A program made the position numbers and the translations under genes. The notes under the pieces were generated by a model that saw nothing but the letters and a program-made list of their open reading frames with translations, was not told the origin of the DNA and did not search any database. 64,000 bases of DNA from Candidatus Poribacteria bacterium (GTDB lineage Bacteria > Poribacteria > WGA-4E > WGA-3G): contig JAPPII010000092.1 in assembly GCA_028820845.1 (NCBI GenBank), positions 1 to 64,000 of the forward strand. The letters run 5' to 3'. Positions 21,635 to 61,689 of the stretch are shown piece after piece (position 1 is the first letter of the stretch; each line of letters opens with the position of its first letter).

Positions 21635-21925
21635 CCAATTCTTGGCGACAATTGAAAAGAGAACTGCAGTGGACATCAGGGTGGACGCTCAGAGCTATTT
21701 AGTTTTAAGAGTTAAGTTTACTTATGTAAAGTCTTCCCGTTTCTGGATGCCCGAATTTATTCGGGATGGCACACCTTTCCCAAATAAGTTCGGGCTTCCG
21801 CACCTAAATTATTGGAAAACTGAATGGCCCTGGTGGACGCTATAACAACTTGACAGATTGAGAAGTGTGAACAAGCAACGAAATAATAAGGAATATGACA
21901 ACACGTCTCTGATGGAGGTGATCTA
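21635..21925. other. Intergenic region with a palindromic element
   Basis: AT-rich stretch after the HigBA pair. It contains the 55-bp double-hairpin element (21745-21799), bracketed by 10-bp direct repeats GGTGGACGCT at 21680-21689 and 21832-21841. A plus-strand frame of 95 codons here looks non-coding. Confidence 0.5.
21745..21799. repeat. 55-bp double-hairpin palindromic element, copy 1
   Basis: Arms of 21 bp (GGATGCCCG... and ...CGGGCTTCC), themselves small inverted repeats, surround a core with GGCACACCTTTCCC. The element at 58840-58894 has the same length, the same layout and matching arm ends. Confidence 0.7.
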
Positions 21926-52592: not shown

Positions 52593-54197
52593 TTAAAAAA
52601 GATAACCTATATCAAATATAAACCTATGCGCTTGATCCGTTTGCCCCTTGTGGTGTTCGGCATTTTGCGTGTACTGCCATCCGTAAGAGAGTGAAGCGTT
52701 CCATCCGTTTAGCGGACGATAAGAGAATGTTCCTCCGATTTCTGTCGTCCGAGCAACAACCCCCGTAGGAAACGAGAGTGCTTCGTAATCCTCACCGTAA
52801 AACCGATCGGCAACTGTTCCTTCTCCGTGTCGCGTCAACACCGTCCCGATTTCTGCCTTCGTGGAAACAGTGAACTGATAGGACGCTGAAAATCGAAACA
52901 CATCCGAATCCGTGCCAATCGGGTGTCCGATGACATAACCGAAGTGCGTGAACTGGTTATCAGGCACAAGATGCGTGTATGCCCATCGATTGACGCGCGC
53001 ATATTCGCTATGAATGCCGAAATGCCGTTTTAACTGTCGCGGATACCACGTCCCCCCTAAAAGCCACGCGACCGCATGCGGATCGTTTGAAGTTCGTACG
53101 TACTGAATATCGTCAATAAGCCATTCACCGTAGAGCCGTACACCGTCAATCGGACGGATCGCAGCATCAAAGGCGAACATGAGATTATCATCGGCTTTGG
53201 CATGATATTGTAGCGCGTAATAAAAGGTAACCGGATTCGCGTATTCCCACTCCACCGTCTGCGCATCACCACCGTAAAGCACCCACTCAGCGACACCGAT
53301 TTCCACGCGGTCGTTGAGTTGATAGTCGAGTCGATGTCCGCTCATATAGCGTTTCGCCAGATACCGTTTTTCACCATCGTCGTACCACGTTGAATTCAGT
53401 TGCGTGGTGAAGGCTGTTGCTTTAAACTTTTTTCCGAGTCTACCTGTGAGCCGAATCTGGTCAAACGGAGGTGAGTTATCCGAGATACCAACCGTTTTGA
53501 AGGGACTAGCACCCCAGAAAAGCCAATCTCTACCCACGAGCAGGTCGAGGTGTGCGCTGTTTATTTGTAGGTAACTTCTTTTGAAATCTATGATATACCC
53601 GCGTGCACGGTGCCACGGATCGAAACGTTGTTCAGCGGTTTTTGCGTCAAGCGAACGACTTTCAAAGTTCTGTCCCTCAAATTCAGAATAAAGCACTAAG
53701 CGTGGCGCAGCCCTTCTGTCAACTTTGCCGATTGTATATTGAAACGCGCTTTCAATTGCGGGTGCTATTTTTTTTTCTGTTGCTCGCAATTGGGAGAGCG
53801 CGTTTATCGCCAGTCCATAGTCACCTGCAATTTCGGATCGAAATTCCCGTTTCAGTTTTTCAAGGAGTTTCCTATCAATTGCCGATACGACAACCTCACC
53901 TGCTTGAATCCTTGATTCCGCCTGCGCTATAATCTCTGTTATTTCTGCCCGTGAGAGCAGTGCTGTTTGCCGGTGAAACCCACCTGTTATCCCGTTAGTT
54001 TCTAATTTCGCAAGTGCTTCGGTAATCCATCCGTCGAAGTTGAGTGGAACATCGGGAGCACCATAAGCACAGTTTACAATGAACAGGAACGCAAGGCAAA
54101 TGGCTGTTGGCTGTTGGCAAATAGCGATTGGTTTCCATAAGCCATAGACCATAAGCCATAGACCATAAGCCATAGACCATAGACTACTGACCACCAT
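52593..54197 (-). CDS. Capsule assembly Wzi family outer-membrane protein
   Basis: 534 residues from ATG 54197, chosen because GGAGGCAGTGG sits just upstream; two further in-frame starts lie beyond it. Most of the protein is alternating beta strands of a Wzi-like barrel, with HRARGYIIDFKRSYLQI, LLVGRDWLFWGAS and a final FIFDIGYLF ending in Phe. Wzi proteins hold capsule polysaccharide at the outer membrane. The signal peptide is unusual: about residues 5-32 (SSLWSMAYGLWLMVYGLW and beyond) are translated from a 7-bp repeat array. The mature part probably starts near APDVPLNFDGW. Confidence 0.75.
   Translation of the reverse strand: MVVSSLWSMAYGLWLMVYGLWKPIAICQQPTAICLAFLFIVNCAYGAPDVPLNFDGWITEALAKLETNGITGGFHRQTALLSRAEITEIIAQAESRIQAGEVVVSAIDRKLLEKLKREFRSEIAGDYGLAINALSQLRATEKKIAPAIESAFQYTIGKVDRRAAPRLVLYSEFEGQNFESRSLDAKTAEQRFDPWHRARGYIIDFKRSYLQINSAHLDLLVGRDWLFWGASPFKTVGISDNSPPFDQIRLTGRLGKKFKATAFTTQLNSTWYDDGEKRYLAKRYMSGHRLDYQLNDRVEIGVAEWVLYGGDAQTVEWEYANPVTFYYALQYHAKADDNLMFAFDAAIRPIDGVRLYGEWLIDDIQYVRTSNDPHAVAWLLGGTWYPRQLKRHFGIHSEYARVNRWAYTHLVPDNQFTHFGYVIGHPIGTDSDVFRFSASYQFTVSTKAEIGTVLTRHGEGTVADRFYGEDYEALSFPTGVVARTTEIGGTFSYRPLNGWNASLSYGWQYTQNAEHHKGQTDQAHRFIFDIGYLF
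54096..54193. repeat. 7-bp degenerate tandem repeat array (D)
   Basis: Fourteen units in register, including gcaaatg, gctgttg twice, gcaaata, gcgattg, then taagcca/tagacca three times and tagacta, ctgacca. It covers the NadE stop (54184-54186) and the signal-peptide codons of the Wzi-like gene. Confidence 0.85.
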
Positions 54198-56295
54198 CCA
54201 CTGCCTCCAATTTTTCAACATAGGCATCAATGCGGCGGAACTGCCATGTCCAGCGTGTGTTATACAGGAACTGCCGGAGGTCGAAGCGGTTGTCGTCCGG
54301 CGAATAAGATTCGGCGTGATAGGACGGGGTCAACGTTGTCATTTTGTGTCGATTGATAGAATAGTATCTGAAGAACCGTTTTACTTTTTCAGCGACTTCA
54401 CGCGGCGGCAAGTGGTCCCACTCCTGCACTAATTTCTCAAACATGCTAACGGGACCGCACTGCTCCATTTTTCGGAGCTGCCCGAAGCGACTCAATTCCG
54501 CGTAAGTCATTCCCATATCGTCTTCATCTGTCTGCGTGTAGGTTTCAGTTATCGGTTCGAGTTCCGCTGTCGGGGGTGCCTCTATAATTTCAGCAAGTGC
54601 GGAATAACCGAGCGCATCTTTTGCCCAATTCAGGAATCGACGCAAATCGTGTTTGCTAATACCACCGATCGGGTTGATGTCACCGCTACTGCAATCGTAT
54701 TTTGTCAGGTAACCGCGCAGTGCCTCGTCGACGTTCCCAGTCCCTAAAACAAGAAGTGTCCCTTGACGGTTTCGCGTCCACGGCATCATCTGTGCAAAGA
54801 GATAACTAATCACCATCCGCAATCTCGCCTGTATGTTTTGGAGGGCTTGGTTTTCTGTATATGTTCCGCCCTCGACCTTGAATCGGGGTGTCTTCTGCGT
54901 GATACGGGTAAAAAGCGATTGTAGGGCGTTAACAAGACCATCCATGTTGATATTCAGATGGGACGCGCCTATCTGTTCAGCGAGTTGCTTCGCACGCTTC
55001 TGCGTTTCACGGGAACTGTTCTTGGTCCCAATATAACACGTATACAACAAGCGATTCGCAAGCACACACGGATCCGTAAAAACATCCGGCGTTTCATCCT
55101 TCTCCAACCATCGTTCAACGTCCTTGATGACCGTTTCATCATTTTCACGGATCGCTTTAGCGACGAGTTGACACATCGAACCGACAAGCGTCGCAACCGC
55201 TCCGCTGTCCGCACCACCAGAAAGCGGAATGAAGTACCCCGCTGCCTCCGATCTACGCAGATAATCCCAAAGCCAACACGCTGGACCGAGAGCTATCTCT
55301 TCTTCTGGTTTGTGGTAACGCGGAACGATTGCAAAAGAAGATTGGACATCCATCCTTCCATCCTTCCATCCTTCCATTCCCACGTCAAAATCAATATCAA
55401 TCTGCGGCAGTGCCACCGTTTTGCTCGCTTGGACAGCACGACTCGCCTTCGTCCCCCGATAGGCGCGAACATCGTCAAGGTTCACCGTTGCCGTGATGAC
55501 CTCTACATCTTTGAGTGAGAATTGAGAGCCTTGCGCCAAGATTTCGCCATTTTGGGCAATCAGTGCGCATCCGTCAAAATAGAGTCGGCCCCCGTCGCAC
55601 CCCTGTTGGTTTGCATAGAGGTAGACTCCGCCGTTTTTCTCACTGGCATTTCGGATCAGCGCGATGCGAGTGTCCAATTTCCGCAATTCATGGTGAGAGC
55701 CTGACCCATTTGCGATAATCTCCACCCCGGCATTGCCGAAATGGATATGCGGACTCATCGGCACAAACAGCTCCTCACACGTCTCAGATGCCAAGAGTGT
55801 ATCACCCGTGGCAATCGCTGCGATACCGATGGGTACTTTCTGTTGTCCCGTAAGTTCGCGAATCTCGCGCGGTAGCGTGTAGCGTTCGGTTGTCCAACCG
55901 TGTTCCCATGCCGCAAACCACCGATGCTCCCGATAGTTACCATCGCTTGCCAAGAACATTTTTGGACGAATCAACAGCAACTTGCCATCTAACACAAAGA
56001 CCCGACAGTTATACCTGACATTTTTGTGCATGACCGGCATACCGATGTCGCAGAGAATGCCGTCTGTGTGTTTCCCTTTAAGGATATGTGCCAGCGATTC
56101 CCAACTGTGTTGGAGCGTGTCTAACTCCAGGAAATGGTCTTCACAAGAATATCCCGTAATCTCCAGTTCCGGTCCCAAGCGATACCGCGCCCCGCGCGCT
56201 TTCGCTATCTCGATGGATTCAATGATACGCGCAGTATTCCCCTCAAAGTCGAGGCTCCACTGGTTCAGGTTACACGTTGCAAGGACTGCTTTCAT
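54184..56295 (-). CDS. nadE: Glutamine-dependent NAD(+) synthetase
   Basis: 703 residues. Makes NAD from deamido-NAD, ATP and glutamine. The N-terminal nitrilase-type glutaminase has E45 (GPELEITG), K112 (IRPKMFLA) and C173 (SETCEELF). The synthetase domain has the ATP loop PLSGGADSGAV and a C-terminal insert as in long, eukaryote-like forms. Residues about 305-317, in the linker between domains, are encoded by an 8-bp tandem repeat. The last codons and stop fall in a 7-bp repeat array. It starts 4 bp after the TolB-like gene. Confidence 0.93.
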   Translation of the reverse strand: MKAVLATCNLNQWSLDFEGNTARIIESIEIAKARGARYRLGPELEITGYSCEDHFLELDTLQHSWESLAHILKGKHTDGILCDIGMPVMHKNVRYNCRVFVLDGKLLLIRPKMFLASDGNYREHRWFAAWEHGWTTERYTLPREIRELTGQQKVPIGIAAIATGDTLLASETCEELFVPMSPHIHFGNAGVEIIANGSGSHHELRKLDTRIALIRNASEKNGGVYLYANQQGCDGGRLYFDGCALIAQNGEILAQGSQFSLKDVEVITATVNLDDVRAYRGTKASRAVQASKTVALPQIDIDFDVGMEGWKDGRMDVQSSFAIVPRYHKPEEEIALGPACWLWDYLRRSEAAGYFIPLSGGADSGAVATLVGSMCQLVAKAIRENDETVIKDVERWLEKDETPDVFTDPCVLANRLLYTCYIGTKNSSRETQKRAKQLAEQIGASHLNINMDGLVNALQSLFTRITQKTPRFKVEGGTYTENQALQNIQARLRMVISYLFAQMMPWTRNRQGTLLVLGTGNVDEALRGYLTKYDCSSGDINPIGGISKHDLRRFLNWAKDALGYSALAEIIEAPPTAELEPITETYTQTDEDDMGMTYAELSRFGQLRKMEQCGPVSMFEKLVQEWDHLPPREVAEKVKRFFRYYSINRHKMTTLTPSYHAESYSPDDNRFDLRQFLYNTRWTWQFRRIDAYVEKLEAVDGGQ
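55346..55381. repeat. 8-bp tandem repeat inside nadE
   Basis: CCATCCTT repeated three times plus a variant (55350-55381), encoding an acidic Gly/Lys/Met stretch (EGWKDGRMD) in the interdomain linker. Related purine-rich repeats lie in the gene at 58960 (59801-59877). Confidence 0.75.
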
Positions 56296-57496: not shown

Positions 57497-58960
57497 TTAT
57501 GTTTTCTGCGGTTTCTTACGTGCCGCCGGAAATAGGATATTGTTCAAAATTAACCGATACCCCGGCGAGTGTTTGTGCAAATCGAGGTTCGTCGGGATTT
57601 TTCCTTCACCCACAAGGTGACGATAATCCTCTGGGTCGTGTCCACCGAGAAACGTCCAAGTGCCTTTCCCTAATTTACCGTGAATATATTTTGCGTAGTT
57701 TGTGCCTTCCACCTCTCCGAGAATCGTGACAGAGCCGCGAATCCTATCCATGTTAAACGATGTTGTCTGTCCGAGGTAGCCCGGCACAACGCTCACATGA
57801 TTTTGTGTGAGCATTGTTGGAATCGGATCGTGCTTTGCTGCGAACTCAAAAAGCTTAAAGTCCTCAACACCGCTCTGTGCATCCCTATCAGGTTTCGGGT
57901 TGTCTATATCCGAGAATTCGTATCGGTACGGATTCGTATAGAGTTTAAAATTCTCAAACGCCAAGGTCCGCTGAAAATCAAGGTGCGCCTCCGCATCTGT
58001 CTCAATCGGTGTTCCGTCTAATTCAGGTGCAACGATGTCGATGGCTCCGCCGCGTGTTGCCAATGCGATATCCAAGGTTTCAGGGGCAGAACACATTGCA
58101 AAGATGAACCCACCGTTGACAATATAGTCCGATATCATCTGTGCCGTCTGTCCCTTGTGCTGTGGGACGCGTCGGAATCCCGCCTCCGTAGCGGCTTGCT
58201 CAAACATCAACATCCGTTGTTGATACCAGACCTGCGTCGAAAACGAGGCGTGGAACTTGCCGTGCTGCCCCGTGAAGTCCTCGTGGTGCAGATGTAGCCA
58301 ATCATAGTCATCTGTCTCTAAAACACCGCTCTGCACCTCTTTATCCCAGATGACATCGTAGGGAATCTGTGCGTAGTCCAGTGCAATTTTAACAGCATCG
58401 TCCCATGGATCCCGATAAGGCGATGCCTCTGAGGGTGCGTATACCGCAATCTTCGGAGCCTTTTCCAATAGAATCTCGTCCATATTGCTGCCTTGAAGGA
58501 CAGATTCCTTGATGCTGCGATACGCGGCATTGTCCATCCGTTCAAAGCTGACTCCCATGAGCGCAGCACGCATTTGGACATCCGGGGAGTCCGGCAGCAC
58601 AAATGCGCCGCCACGATAGTTCAACCACCAGTAGCAACGGTACTCCCGTGGGACCTCCAATGCCCAGTATGTCAAGCCGTAAGCCTTCAGATGGTTCGTC
58701 TGTGCCCCGATGTCCATCGGTATCAGCAGCCATTGCGCGGCGGCGATGTTTGTACCGATAAGGAACAATAGGAGTATCAGGAGTATAGCATGGTGGATCT
58801 TAGAATTATTTATACACCTGATATTGGTAAAGTTTTTCCGGATGCCCCAACTTGTTGGGGAGAGCACACTTTTCCCGAACAAGTTCGGGCATCCAGATGT
58901 TCGCTTATTTCTATAATTCACTATAATTTTACGCTTTACCATAGTCCGAAACGTATTCAT
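57497..58960 (-). CDS. Exported protein of unknown function with an embedded palindromic element
   Basis: 487 residues. The conserved part begins after a hydrophobic segment (HHAILLILLLFLIGTNIAAA, about 56-75) with WLLIPMDIGAQTNHLKAYG; proteins with this start are sometimes labelled asparagine synthetase B, but no synthetase motif is seen, so I do not use that name. Its start ATG overlaps the upstream gene's TGA (TGATG), suggesting coupling. Codons about 22-45 between start and signal segment come from the 55-bp double-hairpin element (58840-58894), giving an unusually long n-region. A later start is not available in frame as ATG, GTG or TTG between the element and the hydrophobic segment. 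Confidence 0.65.
   Translation of the reverse strand: MNTFRTMVKRKIIVNYRNKRTSGCPNLFGKSVLSPTSWGIRKNFTNIRCINNSKIHHAILLILLLFLIGTNIAAAQWLLIPMDIGAQTNHLKAYGLTYWALEVPREYRCYWWLNYRGGAFVLPDSPDVQMRAALMGVSFERMDNAAYRSIKESVLQGSNMDEILLEKAPKIAVYAPSEASPYRDPWDDAVKIALDYAQIPYDVIWDKEVQSGVLETDDYDWLHLHHEDFTGQHGKFHASFSTQVWYQQRMLMFEQAATEAGFRRVPQHKGQTAQMISDYIVNGGFIFAMCSAPETLDIALATRGGAIDIVAPELDGTPIETDAEAHLDFQRTLAFENFKLYTNPYRYEFSDIDNPKPDRDAQSGVEDFKLFEFAAKHDPIPTMLTQNHVSVVPGYLGQTTSFNMDRIRGSVTILGEVEGTNYAKYIHGKLGKGTWTFLGGHDPEDYRHLVGEGKIPTNLDLHKHSPGYRLILNNILFPAARKKPQKT
58840..58894. repeat. 55-bp double-hairpin palindromic element, copy 2, inside a coding frame
   Basis: Arms GGATGCCCCAACTTGTTGGG and ...CGAACAAGTTCGGGCATCC are 21-bp inverted repeats and each folds on itself; the core has GAGCACACTTTTCCC. 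Matches 21745-21799 in length and layout. It encodes residues of the 57497-58960 product. Confidence 0.8.
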
Positions 58961-61689
58961 CAGTTTTTCCCTGGTGTGTTTATTTGTAAATTACCTGCGG
59001 CAGCTGCCGGTTCACGTCCAAATACGACGTGTCCATTGTGTATCAGTGCCGTCTCGGTAGTTTCTGGGTGGGTCGTATCAATTTTCCAAAGTTGCCCGTT
59101 GTTTTCGTAGATAATCCACCGTCCATCCGGTGGCACCCAGGCTGGATGCGAGCCGCCCCTTCGAGTCAACTGCTTTTCTGTCGGGACACCTTCACTTGAA
59201 TAGGTGACGAGCCAAACCTGTTGGTAATCGCCGACCTTTCGTGTGAACGCCAGTTGATTCGGATTCGCGGGCGACCATGTCGGTTCTATATCGTCTGTGT
59301 CTGGCGATATTACAATCGGCTCGACGCTCTGTGCGATTTGATCGAAGGCGTAGATGTTTCGTCTCTGTTGCCCATCCACAGGAATCGCTGCCTCCGGATT
59401 TTCGATGCTCCCTGCAGTAACATAAGTTAGCATCGTGCCGTCGCTATTCCAGGCAGGTGTGAAACTTTGCAGTGCTGTTGACGGCACAGTGAGCTCGGAG
59501 CCACTCGGAATATGCAGTATAACGACGCGACTTCGATCTCCGAACTCCGGACGTGTATAAGCAACGTATTGTGCATCGGGCGAGATCGCGACATCGTCCG
59601 CCATTTTTCGTCTATCGAAAAGCAGACCACCATCCGGCATTTCACGGTTCCGAATAATAACGTTCCCGTCCCTATCCTGATAAATGAGTGTCCCATCATT
59701 TGCAACAGTTGGATTGTCTCCAATACCTAATGGTGTACTGTTCCCATCAGGCGAGATCCCCCAAATCATGCCGTCGTAAGCGAAATAGATAAACAAAAGA
59801 TTGGAAGACTGGATGGTTGGAAGATTGAGACCTGCCTCCCTTTTTCCATCCTTCCCTCCGTCTTCCTTTTCAATCAGGATGCCCGCTTTGGGGGTAAAAC
59901 GTCCTGTATCACCCAGTTCCCACCCGGCCCCGTTTGCTTTCCAGACAAAACTGATCCCTTTTGTCCAGTAGTTCCATTCTTCGTTTAAACGTCCACCACG
60001 GGTGACACGAAAGATGTCTTCGGGTTCTCCATAACGTTTCCTAATTTCCCAGCGTCCACCGTCCTCAATTTCCGCCATATTTCCGTCTGCATCGATGTAA
60101 ATTGCGAGAACTGCAATGTCAATATGTGCTGTTGTTTCTCCAGGGAATACATGAACTGCTGTAGGTTCACCGCGGACGGGATGACGTGTGCCGTATATGC
60201 CAACGCCATCGGCGATACCGGTTTTCTGGTCGTTGTTTGCGTCCACGACTGCCATGACGTAATAGCTGCCCGGTAGCACATTGACTTGGTAACTGCCATC
60301 GCTTGAAACAGTAATCGGCATCGCAATCGGTGTACTGAAGTCAGGGGCGTAAGAGAGCGTCAGTATTCCCTGCTGGACAGTGTGTCCGTCCCATACGATA
60401 CGTCCGGCGATGCCGCCTTGTTCAATATGTGCTTCAATACTGGGTGGCGTGGCATGAAGCCGTCCATCGTCATCGTAGCGTGCACTTATCACGAGTTCAA
60501 TTTCTTGGGTTTCGCCTTCTACTAAGGTGAGTGCAGTTGGGGGCTGTGCCGTGATGTCTATTGTACCGTAGCCGCCTAAACCGTCCCCTTTACTATATCT
60601 ACCATTCTTATCCGCATCCAGATTAGCGATAACATAGTATTCATCCGGTGGGAGTGCTAAACGGAACGCACCCCCAGGCGCCGTTTCGCCACTGGCAACC
60701 GGAGCGACTAAGGCGGGGTCTGAATACACTTCAAGCCGTGCGGTTACATCCCCGGGCACCGGAGACACGATGCCTGTGAGCGTGCTGGTCGCTGCTTTTT
60801 GCGTCTTCTCACGAGTTTGATAGGTGGCAGTGATTGCGATTTCTATATTTTCAGTGAATTTGTTCACAGAAACCAAAACGGGCTGTGGGAAATTCCCACG
60901 TTTCCGCATATCCTCAACACCGTAGAAGCCAAAGTCGTCCCCTGTATCCAGTTTATTCGTCCTGTTGTTATCCACAATCGCCATCAGGTAGTATTTGCCC
61001 GGCGGTAGATTGAGCGTCCAGCTGCCAGCGTCTGTCACTCTGGCGATACCCGCACGATATTTCCACGATAAATCTGTATACGCAAGAATGAGTGCTTGTG
61101 AACCGGCTCGGAGCGATTTCGGATTTTCTGGTGCTTGGCGGACAAAACGCAGTGTCCCACTACACCCCGATGTCGCTTTGCGCAACTCCGTCTGGAATTG
61201 CTGGAGTTGGCTCGGTTCGTATTCGGATAGTGGAACGACCGTTGGTTTATTATCAATGTAGGTCGCTCGTGCGGTTATCGGGATCTCTAAACCCCGAATC
61301 TTTTCTCCGTCTTGGACTTCAATCTCCTGTTTGTTTTGATTCTCATTGCCCCAGTCGGTAATTCCGAACATACCCAAGCCATCACCTGTATCAAAGCTCC
61401 CAGATTTATCAACATCTACATAAGCAACGAGATAATAGCGTCCGGGTTCCACACGGAGTGTGAATTGTCCATCGCCGAGTTGCGGGATTCCACTAATATA
61501 AACCTGTTGGAGTGCTTCGTCCCGATAAACAGACACACTTGTATGCGACAAGTCTTGCCCTTTCCAGACGACTCTCCCTGCCAAGGTCGCCGTCATCCGT
61601 TTCGCCGTAGCGTCCTCCTGCGCTTGGCAGAAAGCCTCACCGGCAAATCCGATACTGATAACAAGTAGCAAAAGCGTCAAGCGTTTCAT
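58960..61689 (-). CDS. Secreted multi-repeat protein with PD40 propeller C-terminus
   Basis: 909 residues, signal peptide 1-23 (LLLLVISIGFAGEAFCQ). Four related domains of about 110 residues, each a beta-sandwich like a carboxypeptidase-regulatory or SdrD B-type domain, end with an acidic loop: DVDKSGSFDTGDGLGMFG, DNNRTNKLDTGDDFGFYG, DADKNGRYSKGDGLGGYG and DANNDQKTGIADGVGIYG. These loops look calcium-binding. The C-terminal ~300 residues are PD40 blades (PTWSPANPNQLAFTR). A purine-rich short-period repeat at 59801-59877 encodes a Gly/Lys/Glu-rich insert at about 604-629. GAAGGAACGG precedes the ATG. Confidence 0.75.
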   Translation of the reverse strand: MKRLTLLLLVISIGFAGEAFCQAQEDATAKRMTATLAGRVVWKGQDLSHTSVSVYRDEALQQVYISGIPQLGDGQFTLRVEPGRYYLVAYVDVDKSGSFDTGDGLGMFGITDWGNENQNKQEIEVQDGEKIRGLEIPITARATYIDNKPTVVPLSEYEPSQLQQFQTELRKATSGCSGTLRFVRQAPENPKSLRAGSQALILAYTDLSWKYRAGIARVTDAGSWTLNLPPGKYYLMAIVDNNRTNKLDTGDDFGFYGVEDMRKRGNFPQPVLVSVNKFTENIEIAITATYQTREKTQKAATSTLTGIVSPVPGDVTARLEVYSDPALVAPVASGETAPGGAFRLALPPDEYYVIANLDADKNGRYSKGDGLGGYGTIDITAQPPTALTLVEGETQEIELVISARYDDDGRLHATPPSIEAHIEQGGIAGRIVWDGHTVQQGILTLSYAPDFSTPIAMPITVSSDGSYQVNVLPGSYYVMAVVDANNDQKTGIADGVGIYGTRHPVRGEPTAVHVFPGETTAHIDIAVLAIYIDADGNMAEIEDGGRWEIRKRYGEPEDIFRVTRGGRLNEEWNYWTKGISFVWKANGAGWELGDTGRFTPKAGILIEKEDGGKDGKREAGLNLPTIQSSNLLFIYFAYDGMIWGISPDGNSTPLGIGDNPTVANDGTLIYQDRDGNVIIRNREMPDGGLLFDRRKMADDVAISPDAQYVAYTRPEFGDRSRVVILHIPSGSELTVPSTALQSFTPAWNSDGTMLTYVTAGSIENPEAAIPVDGQQRRNIYAFDQIAQSVEPIVISPDTDDIEPTWSPANPNQLAFTRKVGDYQQVWLVTYSSEGVPTEKQLTRRGGSHPAWVPPDGRWIIYENNGQLWKIDTTHPETTETALIHNGHVVFGREPAAAAGNLQINTPGKN
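59801..59877. repeat. Short-period purine/pyrimidine repeat inside a coding frame
   Basis: Begins with heptamer-like units (ggaagac, tggatgg, ttggaag) and ends with octamer-like ttccatcc, ttccctcc. Encodes EDGGKDGKREAG between the repeat domains and the propeller of the 909-residue protein. Confidence 0.6.

Follow-up and report, generated by a model that had tools for sequence, protein, structure and literature searches.

An IS630-Type MITE with REPIN Cargo Lies in Frame in the Predicted Signal Peptide of a Poribacteria Gene

How did a hairpin-forming element that also occurs between genes come to be translated near the N-terminus of a protein that is predicted to be exported? The question is raised by positions 58840–58894 of the window, the whole 64,000-nucleotide stretch of Candidatus Poribacteria DNA analyzed here. 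A preliminary description had reported a 55-bp double hairpin within the reading frame 57497–58960, with a second copy at 21745–21799, and had compared it to the protein-coding palindromes of Rickettsia. The element, its in-frame position and the second copy were all confirmed in the sequence. As a recurrent hairpin pair the 55-bp element stood; it proved, however, to be merely the core of a larger insertion, a 137-bp MITE of IS630 type.

A Recurrent Hairpin Pair

The 55 bp read GGATGCCCCAACTTGTTGGGG-AGAGCACACTTTT-CCCGAACAAGTTCGGGCATCC, an inverted pair of hairpins with no strand assigned, and encoded residues 23–41 of the host protein (GCPNLFGKSVLSPTSWGIR). The first REP arm (58840–58860, forward strand) was composed of GGATG and CCCCAA-CTTG-TTGGGG, and the second (58874–58894, reverse strand) of GGATG and CCCGAA-CTTG-TTCGGG. 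By the definition of PMC3116915 the pair is a REPIN, i.e., an inverted REP doublet, here the cargo at the core of the MITE. Folded as single-stranded DNA, the doublet formed one long hairpin, with a folding z-score of −7.3.

A 16-mer of the REP arm matched the window five times, where 0.58 matches were expected. In the genome that contains the window (G000, a draft assembly, probably metagenome-derived), 77 arms with three mismatches or fewer were found at 49 places, and none with a reversed control pattern, so that the genome-wide search proposed in the preliminary description did reveal recurrence. There were 26 doublets, with start-to-start distances of 33–35 or 40–41 and a single exception. 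Across 355 arms, the stem was kept through compensatory changes at three stem pairs; one pair was GC in 262 arms, CG in 59 and AT in 8, and another CG in 266 and TA in 81. The foot tag was GGATG, GGAAG or GGACG (GGA[TAC]G) in 331 of the 355 arms. With such a tag the 55-bp unit was not assigned to the GTAG class, GTAG being the REP tag described in PMC3733652, though its behavior was REP-like. Among 85 genomes of the phylum, 9 had the REP unit, eight of them from the genus of the window, and the 21-bp unit was also detected in genomes labelled Armatimonadetes, Nitrospira, Chloroflexi, and Desantisbacteria.

In G000 the unit was a short imperfect palindrome with many copies, nearly all outside convincing genes. 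Reading of the loci gave a convincing gene location at 1 of the 49 places, namely the window copy. A possible further in-frame copy, within a frame of 1026 aa (C17, C61), was dismissed, as it had no REP arm and its similarity was confined to the signal-peptide part. The ORFs lying over arms at L019, L309, and L317 had no Pfam match and were not accepted as genes, and the overlap with a helicase at L007 was discarded, since the first TTG fell in the element and the true start is likely later. Outside this genome, a doublet with long palindromic flanks (AGAATCTCAACGGAAGCCCGAA...) lay in frame mid-way through an 830-aa YfhO-like membrane protein (L232:624–3116, reverse strand) of a MAG labelled Nitrospira sp. 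Bin_21_1.

The Carrier MITE and Its Host Gene

The MITE, a member of the "C" family, occupied 58789–58925 on the reverse strand, in frame, with both target copies included in its 137 bp. Its left end (58904–58925, reverse strand) read TATAGTGAATTATAGAAATAAG, with a family consensus of TATGGTGAATTATAGAAATAAG, and its right end (58789–58810, reverse strand) AATAATTCTAAGATCCACCATG, with a consensus of TAATTCTAAAATCTACCATA. Both ends matched the C family, the left one at 27 of 30 positions, and right ends of this family occurred 31 times in G000 against one control match. Imperfect terminal inverted ends were common to the family, and full copies were flanked by TA at both sides; the window copy had TA at the left and TG, read as a decayed TA, at the right. 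The carrier is best seen as an IS630-type MITE because a relative, G012, contained a 910-bp IS630-type element (G012:C28) with a DDE_3 domain (112 bits), the same ends and flanking TA. IS630 elements of G000 itself were ruled out as the source, as none of its three DDE_3 loci had the MITE ends. Other C-family copies carried other hairpins as cargo, several of them GTAG-footed (GTAGGTGCGGTTTCTAACCGCACC, GTAGGGGCACCCCTTGTGGGTGCCC), and the same composite of MITE and REPIN was also intergenic in G012.

The host gene (57497–58960, reverse strand) encoded 487 aa, predicted to be exported, with no NCBIfam match and no Pfam match even at E 5. Its start codon overlapped the stop (TGATG) of the upstream gene 58960–61689, and residues 23–41 were placed between this coupled start and the hydrophobic export segment, as had been described. 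The hydrophobic core of the signal peptide, AILLILLLFLIG (58754–58789, reverse strand), followed directly after the insert, and an AAA-Q cleavage site is expected near 58735/58736. Excision of 58789–58925 with one TA left gave MNTFRTMVKRKITILLILLLFLIGTNIAAAQWLL, a canonical signal peptide (MNTFRTMVKRKITILLILLLFLIGTNIAAAQ). The net insertion was 135 bp, or 45 codons, and two of the six reading frames through the insert were open throughout; an alternative left end at 58943 would make it 153 bp, also a multiple of three. The n-region, suspected earlier of being abnormally long, was indeed extended from 11 residues without the insert to about 57 with it, and was strongly basic, its net charge rising from +4 to +12.

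Orthologues and Same-Species Comparison

An orthologue of the host gene was present in 40 of 40 relatives. In genus relatives, full-length orthologues could be aligned only from about residue 50–62, and the inserted residues were absent from all orthologues compared. The same-species genome G074 had no insert; its mature part was 99.3% identical to that of G000, with 8 synonymous and 1 non-synonymous codon differences, and 292 of 300 bases upstream were identical by position. The n-region of G074 was a different allele, MNTRHTQRFYILSRGLSTSFLVLLLFLIG (MNTRHTQRFYILSRG...), leaving no clean empty site within the species, and the pre-insertion sequence (MNTFRTMVKRKITILLILLLFLIG... uninterrupted) is thus reconstructed rather than observed. 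Comparison of window positions 58780–58960 with L293 (G074) showed wholly different n-region alleles, as if swapped by recombination.

Insertions in this n-region were seen again in two other species. The G012 orthologue had a reversed C-family MITE end and hairpin in frame in its n-region (MNTFRIVKFRINWTLQTGEVFQPRLPRAGRFLRLG...), and the G083 orthologue a reversed, hairpin-free copy of the same type, which supplied a new ATG, the only good one. Because orientation and positions in G012 and G083 differ from those in G000, the n-region received MITEs in at least two, and probably three, insertions. The n-region was the most variable part of the host protein, which fits a segment tolerant of insertions since it is cleaved off.

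Translated repeats of another kind were noted in orthologues of G016, G014, and G003 (L039, L042, L045), whose n-regions consisted of GGATGGAA-type tandem repeats (MEGRKDGRMEGRMEEWKDGRMEEWK). Within the window, TCCATCCT tandem repeats lay at 55341–55382, and a 14-bp tandem repeat, CCATAAGCCATAGA, at 54135–54190.

Origin of the Insertion and Alternative Explanations

Very probably, an IS630/Tc1-type MITE with REPIN cargo moved into the signal peptide and has stayed there as a near-neutral passenger. The non-autonomous element would have transposed into a TA between the n-region and the hydrophobic core, with an IS630-type transposase presumably acting in trans. The frame is kept because the net length is 135 bp, and the 45 added codons, falling in a frame that happens to be free of stops, would have left the gene open. 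The extra residues would extend the n-region only and be lost when the signal peptide is cleaved at the unchanged AAA-Q site; the mature protein would then be unaffected and the insertion could persist. Its location in a cleaved signal peptide is most likely the reason why it is tolerated.

That the 55 bp are ordinary coding sequence conserved among orthologues has practically no probability left: the open frame continues into conserved protein, but the residues occur in no orthologue, whereas their conservation in orthologues had been named beforehand as the finding that would overturn the insertion, and the DNA recurs outside genes. It is very improbable that a RAYT inserted the REPIN alone and that the flanking MITE ends are coincidental. 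RAYTs have been proposed elsewhere to mobilize REPINs (PMC3116915), and one flanked by the REP unit exists in G022; yet both MITE ends lay at the expected positions, excision restored a signal peptide, the same composite was found between genes in G012, and no orthologue was seen with the MITE ends at the site and without the REPIN. The suggested likeness to RPEs, in which a palindromic family would be adapted to coding sequences as in Rickettsia, likewise fared badly and is improbable. The insert is in frame with two of six frames open, the G012 orthologue likewise has a remnant with a hairpin within its translated frame, and the YfhO-like protein of an unrelated genome contains an in-frame doublet. 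Against this, only 1 of the 49 places in G000 was convincingly in a gene, the other overlapping ORFs either lacked a family match or shared with the element no more than a doubtful first start codon, and the inserted unit was a MITE from a family with TA sites; judging by the G000 loci, in-gene copies are probably no commoner than random insertion would make them.

Two further explanations concern the effect of the insert on its host. Extended signal-peptide regions affect export in autotransporters, and the lengthened, more basic n-region or an mRNA hairpin might alter export or translation here and be kept by selection. The growth of the n-region from 11 to about 57 residues with its gain in charge, the folding of the 5' mRNA of the host gene (z −4.8) and the uptake of MITEs by the same n-region in three species are in line with such a putative effect; it is nevertheless unlikely, as G074 of the same species does without the insert, the inserted residues are not conserved, and mere tolerance predicts the recurrence equally well. 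It is also rather unlikely that the start has shifted into the insert or that the gene is now silenced. The insert contains an in-frame TTG (codon 27) and GTG (codon 32), and the MITE of the same type in G083 supplies the only good ATG of that orthologue, but in the window the original ATG is intact and still overlaps the stop codon of the upstream gene, and no stop interrupts the reading frame. The mature part is apparently under purifying selection (dN/dS about 0.03–0.04), a value that is little informative on the time since insertion.

Relation to Known Systems

The insertion of the MITE with its REPIN neatly exemplifies a known phenomenon and introduces no new type of element. REPs are known from within genes (PMC3733652), and in-frame MITE fusions as such are described as not unusual (PMC10969869). 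A literature search for MITEs inserted in frame into signal peptides gave no example. The locus illustrates how, within one species of sponge-symbiont bacterium, mobile non-coding DNA has come to be translated, with an anatomy that shows why the insertion is probably tolerated: the segment should be cut off.

REPINs are REP doublets that form a hairpin and are thought to be mobilized by RAYT transposases (PMC3116915). The present elements resembled them in several ways: two REP units lay inverted across a short spacer whose length fell into fixed classes, they folded as a single long hairpin or a pair of small ones, their distribution was mostly extragenic and, in a relative (G022), copies of the unit formed an array around a RAYT. 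They differed in the tag, GGA[TAC]G here and GTAG there, and in being multiplied mainly as cargo of unrelated MITEs, with no matching RAYT found in G000. Like other IS630/Tc1-mariner MITEs, the carrier was short and non-autonomous, with imperfect inverted ends; copies of its family had TA at both sides, and an IS630 element of a relative had ends that matched. Its interior, in contrast, was a variable REP-type hairpin cargo and not a remnant of transposase genes. The RPEs of Rickettsia are palindromes of about 150 bp repeatedly found in frame in genes (Ogata 2000 and 2002, as cited in PMC10969869). Size, palindromy and in-frame insertion in a gene are shared with the present element, whereas the one convincing in-gene case among 49 places and the nature of the unit, a MITE from a family with TA sites, set it apart from RPEs as far as they are described in that citing account. 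The GTAG- and CGTC-tagged palindromic repeats are also small tagged hairpins, some reported inside genes (PMC3733652), and other cargo hairpins of the C-family MITE carried GTAG, but the 55-bp unit had the GGA[TAC]G tag.

Spread of the REPINs

The copy at 21745–21799 (no strand assigned) had been taken as the same element. Its 55-bp core was indeed common to both, but the surrounding MITEs were unrelated. It formed the REPIN core of an intergenic, 143-bp "A"-family MITE (21690–21832, forward strand; ends CAGAGCTATTTAGTTTT and AAAACTGAATGGCCCTG), bracketed by the 9-bp target duplication GTGGACGCT at 21681–21689 and 21833–21841. This family, 143 bp with 9-bp target duplications, was the backbone for most REPINs in G000, and a third backbone had ATTACCGAA ends. 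REPINs were the cargo of at least three distinct MITE backbones, a finding of relevance to the spread of REPs where their own transposase is missing.

A literature search on REP/RAYT elements in Poribacteria found nothing on topic; they are documented here. In G022, a 199-aa protein, flanked by six direct and one inverted REP units, passed the NCBIfam model REP_Tyr_transpos (NF047646) with 88.3 bits at a cut-off of 80, i.e., a RAYT gene flanked by the REP unit. Only one protein of G000 was related to it (C92:101802); at 34% identity and with no REP units nearby, it was rejected as a RAYT candidate. That no close homologue of the G022 RAYT was found in G000 suggests that the REPINs there may now spread as MITE cargo. 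It is conceivable, though we would put it somewhat below an even chance, that unrelated MITE families each took up the same REPIN, so that DDE transposons rather than RAYT spread REP hairpins, and that n-regions of signal peptides serve time and again as landing pads, turning such composites into translated protein.

The G022 locus (L149:700–1805) was a REPtron, RAYT plus REP array, adjoining an A-family MITE. A third nested element, which targets the hairpin tip, was a 45-bp unit, AATGTAATACAAGGAATGGATTTAGTCTATTCCCAGACTAAATCC, placed exactly at the REP hairpin apex (CCCGAACAAG^...^GGG), where it replaced TTC for a net gain of 42 bp; it was seen in several species (L018, L026, L029, L030, L302, L306 in G000, L090 in G012, and others).
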